Made by a program: the position numbers and the translations under genes | Notes under the pieces: model-generated | Database searches by the model: none | Told to the model about the DNA's origin: nothing | Seen by the model: only the letters and a program-made list of their open reading frames with translations | Source: Mesorhizobium shangrilense | GTDB taxonomy: Bacteria; Pseudomonadota; Alphaproteobacteria; Rhizobiales; Rhizobiaceae | Direction: 5' to 3' | Length of the DNA stretch: 64,000 nucleotides | Assembly (NCBI RefSeq): GCF_028826155.1 | Contig: NZ_JAQGPN010000001.1 | Coordinates: 744,001-808,000, forward strand | Part shown: positions 44,392-47,225 of the stretch, piece by piece | How positions within the stretch are numbered: position 1 is the stretch's first letter | Layout: the number at the start of each line of letters is the position of its first letter

Positions 44392-45837
44392 CTAGTTGCG
44401 TCCCCCGCGCTTCGCCGGCGCTGCCTTGGCCGATCTCTGCTGTCTGGCGAGCGCCTTGGCCTGGCCCACCCAGTCCTCTCGGCCGATCCGCCCGTCGAAG
44501 GCCAGATAAGCCTCGGCCGCAGCGATGTCGGCCCGCTTCCATGCCGCGATCTGGTCGAAGTGGAAGATGCCGTGGTCGTTGAGCTTGCGCTCGTTCACTG
44601 GTCCTATGCCCTTGATCCGGGTCAACGCGTCCGGCTGGCCGCCGCGCGGGGCGGTCAAGGTGTTCGAAAGCACCGGCGCGGAAGGCGTCCGCCTGGTCGC
44701 CCTGGCGACCGGGCGCGCCTCGGCGGCCGGCACAGCATCGGATGCCCGCTTCGGCGATTTCGCGGAAGGCGGCTGCTTTGCGGTCTCTCCCGCCGGCGTT
44801 TGCGCAAGCCGCGCCATCCTCGCCTCGACTTGCCGCGCCCGAGAAGCGCCGGCCGAGACCTTTATTATCTCGCCCTCGTCGTCGCTGTGGCGGATGGTAT
44901 CGGAGACAGGACCCGCCATCATGGAGGCGGAAACCGAGGGACCGTGCGCTGGATCGGGCTCCGCGTCCAGTTCCTCGATGACGCTCTCATCGCCGACCTC
45001 GGTGAGCACCTCGGTCACCTCCTCGTCATCGACGCCGAGATAGGCGGCGATGACCTTCGGGTCGCTCTTGACCGACATCGGGTCGCCGTCGGAAATCTTG
45101 CGGCCGTATTCCAGCACGACGACGTGGTCGGAGATCTGCATCACGACCGACATGTCGTGCTCGATCAGCAGGATCGAGGTGCCGGTGTTCTCCTTGATGT
45201 CGTTGAGCAGGGCGTTGAGCGCCAGGGATTCCTTCGGGTTCAGGCCTGCCGCGGGCTCATCAAGGCAAAGCAGCTCCGGCCCCGTGCACATGGCGCGCGC
45301 AATCTCGAGCCGGCGCTGGGCGCCGTACGGGAGATCGCCCGCCGGATCGTCGGCGCGGCTGGTGAGATCCGCCTTCTCCAGCCAGAACTTGGCCAGCTCG
45401 ATCGAGTCGCGCGACGCCTGGGCATAGCCGCCGATGCCCAGCAGGCCGAGGATGGTGTAGCCCGACGCCTTCATGAGCACGTTGTGCTGCGCAACCAGCA
45501 GGTTCTCGAGTACGGTCATGCCCGAAAACAGCCGGATGTTCTGGAAAGTGCGCGCGACCTTCGCCTTCTGGGTGATCTGGAAGTCAGCCAGCCGCTCGAG
45601 GAGGTAGGTCGACCCGTCCTTGCGGGACAGCGTGATCATGCCTTCGCTGGGCTTGTAGAAGCCGGTGATGCAGTTGAACACGGTCGTCTTGCCGGCGCCG
45701 TTCGGCCCGATCAGCGCGGTGATCTCGCCGCGCCTGGCCTGAAAGGAGAGGTCGCCGATCGCCACCAGCCCGCCGAACTTCATCGACAGGTGTTCGACGT
45801 TGAGGATCGCATCGTTCATGGAAGCCGCCGCACTCAT
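44392..45837 (-). CDS. livG: ATP-binding protein LivG with a C-terminal helix-hairpin-helix extension
   Basis: The first 275 or so residues are a standard LivG ATPase: Walker A GPNGAGKTTVFN, signature region LPYGAQRRLEIARAM (the LSGG equivalent is degenerate, as usual in LivG), Walker B LLCLDEPAAGLNP. The protein is 481 residues, about 200 more than usual. A variable linker is followed near the C-terminus by LTRIKGIGPVNERKLNDHGI and FHFDQIAAW, ending in GREDWVGQAKALARQQ. That segment looks like the helix-hairpin-helix tail of rhizobial NuoE and some ribosomal proteins. ATG at 45837 overlaps the livM stop (TGATG). Confidence 0.93.
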   Translation of the reverse strand: MSAAASMNDAILNVEHLSMKFGGLVAIGDLSFQARRGEITALIGPNGAGKTTVFNCITGFYKPSEGMITLSRKDGSTYLLERLADFQITQKAKVARTFQNIRLFSGMTVLENLLVAQHNVLMKASGYTILGLLGIGGYAQASRDSIELAKFWLEKADLTSRADDPAGDLPYGAQRRLEIARAMCTGPELLCLDEPAAGLNPKESLALNALLNDIKENTGTSILLIEHDMSVVMQISDHVVVLEYGRKISDGDPMSVKSDPKVIAAYLGVDDEEVTEVLTEVGDESVIEELDAEPDPAHGPSVSASMMAGPVSDTIRHSDDEGEIIKVSAGASRARQVEARMARLAQTPAGETAKQPPSAKSPKRASDAVPAAEARPVARATRRTPSAPVLSNTLTAPRGGQPDALTRIKGIGPVNERKLNDHGIFHFDQIAAWKRADIAAAEAYLAFDGRIGREDWVGQAKALARQQRSAKAAPAKRGGRN

Positions 45838-47225
45838 CAACCGTGGCCTTCCTTGGTGAACGCGCTTGAGACGGCCTTCCGTTCGCGCAGGAAGGCGGTG
45901 GGCTCGCGGCTGGCCACGAAACCGCGCGGCTTCCAGATCATGACGATGACCATGGCCATTCCGAAGAGCAGCATGCGGTAGAGCTCCGGCGTGAAGTCGG
46001 GACCGAAGATCAGCTTGAGGAACTGCAGCTCGCGCAGCGCCTCCGTGCCCCCGACCATGACCAGCGCCGCAATCGCGATGCCGGTGAGCGAACCCATGCC
46101 GCCGAGCACGACGATGGCAAGGATGATCGCCGATTCCAGGAAGATGAAGGATTCGGGGCTGACGAAGCCCTGCCGCGCTGCGAAGAACGAGCCGGCGAAG
46201 CCGCCGAACATGGCGCCCGTCGCGAAAGCGGTGAGCTTCGTCGTGGTGGTGTTGATGCCGAGCGAACGGCAGGCGATCTCATCCTCGCGCAGCGCCTCCC
46301 AGGCGCGGCCGACCGGCATTCGACGCAACCGGATGGTGACGAAGGCGGTGAGCAGGCAAAGCAGAAGGATGAGGTAGTAGAGGAAGATCTTGTAGTAGAC
46401 GCCGGACTGCGGAATGCCGAATACCTTGGCGATGTAGAAGGGCGACGAGACGTCGAAATTGAAGAGGCCGAAGAACGTCACCTTGGGTATGCCGGAAATG
46501 CCGGCCGAGCCGTTGGTGAGTTCTCGCCAGTTGATCAGCACGAGACGGATGATCTCGCCGAAGGCCAGGGTCACGATGGCGAGATAGTCGCCGCGCAACC
46601 GCAACACCGGAAACCCGAGGATCACGCCCCACATTGCAGCCATGGCGCCGGCGGCGGGCAGCAGGATCCAGAACGACCAGCCGAACTCGGTGCCGAGCAG
46701 GGCGTAGCAATAGGCGCCGACTGCGTAGAAGGCCACATAACCCAGGTCGAGCAGCCCGGCGAGGCCGACGACGATGTTCAGGCCCCAGGCCAGCATCACA
46801 TAGATGAGAATCTGGATGCCGAAATTGTCGACCCACTTCAGGGAACCCTGGAGGCCGAACATGAGCACCATGGCGATGGGGAAGACAAAGAGGAACCCGA
46901 TGCCCAGCGCGTTGAAGTTCTTGCGCACAAAGCCGGCCTCGGCTTCCACCGGCGGAGCCTTGGCCTTGGCTGCCTTGCTGCGCTCGACGGCGGGCTGGAC
47001 GTAAGCCACCGACACGAAGCGCACGACCATGACAAGCGCCACGATGATCGCCAGCAGTCCCCAGCGGGGGACCAGGATCAGCTCATTGCGGATGTTCTGA
47101 TCGGTCTTCAGGCCTATCAGGAGGACGAAAAGGCCAAAGGCGATGAGCCCCGCATAGACGGCCTCGCGGAGGGCGCGCGGAAACAGGGCATCCGCGGCCC
47201 GTTCGGTTGTCGTAACGGCAGCCAT
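45837..47225 (-). CDS. livM: Branched-chain amino acid ABC transporter permease LivM
   Basis: The 462-residue permease has about ten membrane segments and the LivM signature [20 protein letters not shown] followed by VGAYCYALL. The N-terminal part before the first conserved region is longer than usual (about 110 residues with a charged Ala/Lys-rich linker). It forms the channel with LivH. LivH ends three bases upstream of its start. Confidence 0.94.

Follow-up and report, generated by a model that had tools for sequence, protein, structure and literature searches.

The C-terminal domain of protein-O, a subunit of the reaction centre-light-harvesting 1 (RC-LH1) complex of Dinoroseobacter shibae (PDB 8yy9 chain O), and a chain in PDB 9wqv contain the same 65-residue helix-hairpin-helix (HhH) module. 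In the present study both were matched, at E 6.2e-13 and E 3.7e-17, respectively, by the tail of a LivG-type importer ATPase of Mesorhizobium shangrilense, encoded in a stretch of 64,000 nucleotides (contig NZ_JAQGPN010000001.1, positions 744,001 to 808,000), here called the window. Protein-O differs from LivG in its host part, which is a membrane subunit of a photosynthetic complex; residues 8-59 alone were traced in it, and the HhH domain was not seen in the structure (PMC12079452). According to that article, the C-terminus of protein-O is common to NuoE and other proteins, and the functions of such domains are termed obscure (PMC12079452). A literature search on the tail domain yielded this article alone, and our statement on the LivG tail in print extends no further than that search.

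Databases and one paper already contain the module, but assign it no function. NCBIfam models of extended NuoE, bL21, uS2 and the phasin PhaH describe whole host proteins rather than the module, and their hosts differ from LivG. The closest non-module PDB sequences are those of NusA AR2 (7.1e-5), but this match is confined to the first 44 of the 78 positions of the profile, and AR2 is devoid of the second hairpin glycine and of the half GRxxR(D/E)xWxxQA, which is present in the LivG tail as GRIGREDWVGQA. Several proteins with this tail bear the JGI name 'Predicted flap endonuclease-1-like 5' DNA nuclease'; a FEN1-like nuclease was rejected for LivG, where no nuclease family was found among the 13 Pfam families listed up to E 1.

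The HhH tail of LivG and its other hosts

The fusion of LivG with an HhH tail is real. A reading of the sequence alone (the sequence-only reading) had held LivG to be about 200 residues longer than usual, and this proved accurate, as the match to NF008449 (LivG equivalog) ends at residue 269 and leaves an extension of ~213 residues. In order, the extension comprises an acidic segment that is conserved, a linker that varies and a folded HhH domain with a short basic end (Table 1). The low complexity formerly ascribed to the whole linker thus holds for its later part (Ala/Lys/Pro 38/20/16% in 116 homologues), not for the first ~66 residues (DDEEV...SRAR), which are a conserved segment. In an alignment of 17 LivG sequences the linker was highly variable in length and the HhH domain nearly free of gaps. 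Structure modelling gave a predicted local distance difference test score (pLDDT) below 50 across most of the acidic segment, and for the tail modelled alone a mean pLDDT of 91.9 and a predicted template modelling score of 0.79, so that the tail is predicted to be an independently folded domain on a long disordered arm. Pfam HHH_5 scored 19.8-23 bits on the LivG tail (residues 405-441), under its cut-off of 27, and 29.6 bits on a resistance-nodulation-division (RND) host with two copies of the module. Acidic segment and HhH tail are separable, because each occurs without the other: the segment alone in LivG of five genera (loci L156-L160), the tail alone in another LivG group (L009, L040, L165, L166, L168).

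That the tail is common to NuoE and ribosomal proteins, and used by several complexes, had been proposed beforehand and was borne out. It matched the C-termini of the extended NuoE model NF009040 (1.9e-26), the bL21 models NF008915 and NF008916 (1.9e-20 and 1.8e-18), the uS2 model NF008966 (9.7e-18) and the PhaH model NF045508 (5.9e-14); scores stayed under the whole-protein cut-offs because only the tail was matched, and as sequence matches they lie far beyond chance. The genome itself has three convincing copies, on LivG, NuoE (414 amino acids) and bL21 (203 amino acids), and a fourth match at E 0.79. Among 153 distinct tails, with host labels taken from sequence and the membrane-anchored class set by a hydropathy threshold, the hosts were NuoE (33), membrane-anchored proteins (31), bL21 (25), LivG (14), uS2 (11), RND permeases (5), bL19 (4), the polyhydroxybutyrate (PHB) depolymerase PhaZ (3), dipeptide ATPases (2), a glutamine-type ATPase (1), PntA (1) and others (23), which are not frequencies, since the loci were best matches and chosen examples. 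Curated models named examples of the PntA, PhaZ, RND, GlnQ-like, Dpp-like, bL19 and uS2 hosts, several of them under whole-protein cut-offs. By these matches the module is mobile and mostly alphaproteobacterial, and no fewer than eight unrelated families of host proteins have acquired it.

Three kinds of ATP-binding cassette (ABC) importer ATPase bear the module (LivG, GlnQ-like and Dpp-like). In the GlnQ-like ATPase of locus L042 (1122-2237, minus strand) it stands at the N-terminus, as a separate fusion to a different importer; the module can therefore not be a C-terminal signal. It is also present in small proteins that could be assigned to no family (L068, L072, L098, L029, L037), several of them encoded near nuoE; a Pfam scan of four such neighbours of NuoE (L037 1953-2729, L068, L072, L098) showed no phasin family, and the label 'phasin-like' is a guess. 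The uS2 part of L060 (2001-3125, minus strand) matches NF051451 (uS2 'sunset domain variant', another appended form of uS2), well below its cut-off.

Constraint, distribution and possible origin of the module

A homologous tail in relatives, which the sequence-only reading had left to be looked for, is present. A search with LivG residues 270-482 retrieved 1104 proteins at E ≤ 0.001; the named rows among the 120 listed were mostly Mesorhizobium, and a regular expression counted one HhH motif in 107 of these best 120, two in 11 and none in 2. LivG was matched at E ≤ 1e-20 in 64 of the 81 genomes of a family sample, and the tail lay downstream of LivG in at least 21 of these 64 among the tail matches listed, a count based on 27 tail rows picked by eye among matches listed down to ~E 4e-25, so that weaker LivG tails could be missed. 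The other 43 LivG genes were scored tail-less; all eight of those examined were without the tail by hidden Markov model (13 loci were taken for this check, and L167, without a LivG match, was excluded from all counts).

The ratio of nonsynonymous to synonymous substitution rates (dN/dS) of the HhH tail was 0.03-0.22 in 13 of 14 LivG gene pairs, the remaining pair showing 0.82 with very low dS. The ATPase core gave 0.01-0.22 in all 14 pairs, and the linker 0.20-0.80 in the nine pairs where it was computable. Judged from these rates, the LivG tail is under constraint similar to that of the ATPase core, and the linker is not. A possible origin of the LivG tail from NuoE was considered on two trees. 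In the tree of the LivG core, with 28 rows, the presence of the tail requires seven changes. On a poorly resolved tail tree (63 columns, good support for 10 of 149 inner branches) the LivG tails require two, and outside LivG the rows closest to them belong to NuoE and to membrane-anchored proteins.

At least one copy of the module was present in 28 of 31 genomes (the own genome and 30 relatives), the three without it being 1.1, 1.4 and 2.0 Mb in size, and in 73 of the 81 genomes of the family sample. At E ≤ 1e-5 it was matched in 25 of 241 genomes of a class sample and in 72 of 249 of a phylum sample, where three matching genomes, of one genus and with weak matches, stood outside the class. 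Strict confinement to Alphaproteobacteria is ruled out by these weak matches and by a clear membrane-anchored form in metagenome-assembled genomes (MAGs) of Campylobacterota. A phage collection held no match to the tail at E ≤ 0.001; seven plasmid records matched (Sinorhizobium 4, Rhizobium 1, Shinella 1, Methylobacterium 1), all 2.4-4.6 Mb long.

With a looser OmpA motif, a neighbouring OmpA-family gene was indicated near 12 of 29 membrane-anchored loci versus 0 of 115 other tail loci; the 29 overlap and by coordinates represent 25 places, 11 of them with the motif. Pfam OmpA was found in 9 of 10 neighbours scanned, and BON above cut-off in two and weakly in three more. Membrane-anchored module proteins adjoining an OmpA-family gene occur in L192 (2580-4492), L071, L069, L079, L085, L102, L115 and L020. 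Such a neighbour was found in 7 of 9 Campylobacterota loci, mostly from Sulfurovum MAGs; seven other membrane-anchored loci of the 29 adjoin nuoE/nuoF-type genes, like protein-O. The Campylobacterota flank TEFSKRVD.GEV resembles the flank after some LivG tails (8 of 14, loose pattern). With a narrower pattern it was seen in none of the best 120 of the 1104 LivG homologues, and LivG of the window is without it. No membrane-anchored copy was found in the own genome. It is possible that small membrane-anchored proteins were the founder of the module.

What the tail may bind

We propose, with a probability of roughly 45%, that the LivG tail is a cytoplasmic docking tag with a common partner, which would be a protein (or RNA) rather than DNA, and that it tethers or clusters assemblies. 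The importer ATPase would hold its HhH domain on the long disordered C-terminal arm, the module being likewise joined to complex I, other ABC importers, transhydrogenase, RND pumps, RC-LH1, ribosomal subunits and PHB-granule enzymes, and binding of a common cytoplasmic partner would tether or cluster these hosts. Docking is favoured because most of the hosts that could be named are large assemblies or parts of them and because a long arm carries the domain. Beyond the fusion, its conservation, constraint and reuse, and the predicted fold, we infer a single partner and a tethering effect. Such a partner could jointly explain extended NuoE, bL21, uS2, bL19 and protein-O. This one small domain, shared by no fewer than eight unrelated host families and under selection on LivG, has a function that the article on protein-O terms obscure (PMC12079452). 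LivG offers a clean place to test the tag, because removal of the tail leaves the enzyme domain intact; LivG occurs in related genera both with and without it.

The main competitor is a tether to the nucleoid or DNA, in which hairpin and basic linker would keep LivG, granules and ribosomes close to DNA. Several observations speak for it: 99% and 96% of the 153 copies retain the hairpin glycines, many HhH relatives bind DNA, the linkers are rich in Ala, Lys and Pro, and the copies on LivG are not acidic (mean net charge +1.8, n=14; NuoE +0.5, n=33). However, the domain is near-neutral or acidic in most host groups (bL21 -2.5, n=25; uS2 -3.1, n=11; bL19 -3.3, n=4). Moreover, in the first turn after the hairpin the LivG tail of the window and 76% of the 153 copies have Glu at a position of small residues, as none of six in-genome HhH comparators does, which we take to be DNA-repair proteins. 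These comparators came from 13 HHH_5 rows, three of them the module itself; eight were examined, and the weak L189 and L190 were left out. Ordinary DNA binding is disfavoured because of this charge, this Glu and the absence of a DNA role in most hosts; a DNA-binding role, implied where the sequence-only reading called the module DNA-binding-like, was not supported, a DNA-binding label for the tail is doubtful, and we consider a DNA tether unlikely. The same reading had suggested tethering to ribosome or membrane, which may be kept as a proposal.

Conservation of the module lies elsewhere as well, at R57 (91%), R60 (88%), W63 (98%) and Q66 (95% of the 153 copies). The predicted fold of the tail appears weakly nearest to HhH domains of NusA and RadA (NusA acidic-repeat or RadA N-terminal type). 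The NusA AR2 entries listed include a complex with SuhB (6ib8), and 2jzb is presumably NusA AR2 with the C-terminal domain of the RNA polymerase alpha subunit.

Somewhat less probable still than a DNA tether is one to ribosomal RNA or ribosomes, by which membrane complexes would be drawn to translation. The module does occur on bL21, uS2 and bL19, and the HhH proteins eL32 and uS13 of the ribosome are among the profile matches (E 0.0009-0.03); however, the ribosomal copies are the most acidic, and bL21, uS2 and bL19 lie far apart on the ribosome. Self-association, in which tails would bind one another and cluster their hosts like SAM domains, seems to us no better placed, as the matches are weak. 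A frameshift, a misassembly or an unselected, functionless addition is hardly credible: although 43 of the 64 genomes showed no tail on LivG among the tail matches listed, the joining of two genes in one assembly was looked for and not found, and it is ruled out by the uninterrupted frame, the recurrence of the fusion in relatives and a tail dN/dS similar to that of the core.

The docking tag may be extended to a shared address tag in Alphaproteobacteria, which would gather importers, PHB granules, ribosomes and the complexes of respiration and photosynthesis at one common cytoplasmic hub and would go back to an ancient protein that was anchored in the membrane and had an envelope protein of the OmpA family as its pair. 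This wider proposal is speculative and on balance rather unlikely.

The livG gene and its surroundings

Table 1: Features of the livG region in coordinates of the window
Feature	Residues	Position	Strand	Basis or remark
livG-type ATPase gene with C-terminal extension		44392..45837	(-)	481 amino acids from ATG at 45837; uninterrupted open reading frame
ABC ATPase domain	30-197 of the 482-residue reading	45250..45753	(-)	Pfam ABC_tran 7.6e-29, 101.5 bits (cut-off 25)
C-terminal domain of branched-chain amino-acid importer ATPases	247-272	45025..45102	(-)	Pfam BCA_ABC_TP_C 31.7 bits (cut-off 25.5)
Conserved acidic segment (DDEEV...SRAR)	271-336	44833..45030	(-)	alignment; disordered in model (low confidence)
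Variable Ala/Pro-rich linker	337-401	44638..44832	(-)	composition; length and sequence differ between relatives
HhH tail domain (66 residues)	402-467	44440..44637	(-)	genome coordinates of match
Short basic C-terminal end QRSAKAAPAKRGGRN		44395..44439	(-)	GG close to the end kept in the 17-sequence alignment
Hydrophobic open reading frame, 114 amino acids		43298..43642		between livF-like frame and likely substrate-binding protein frame

With both Pfam cut-offs reached, the first ~270 residues are assigned to a LivG-type branched-chain amino-acid importer ATPase. NF008449 was the best among the NCBIfam families listed and scored 316.1 bits, below its cut-off of 362; the name LivG is therefore used here for the type of protein and not as a formal equivalog assignment. 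An alternative TTG start at 45840 would give 482 amino acids (open reading frame 45840..44392, minus strand). The neighbours, named by us from their sequences, presumably correspond to livM, livH, livF and a substrate-binding protein; the livF-like frame was the only one scanned with Pfam. The ATG of livG overlaps the stop codon of the preceding frame (TGATG), and a TAG/ATG junction lies between livG and the downstream ATPase frame.
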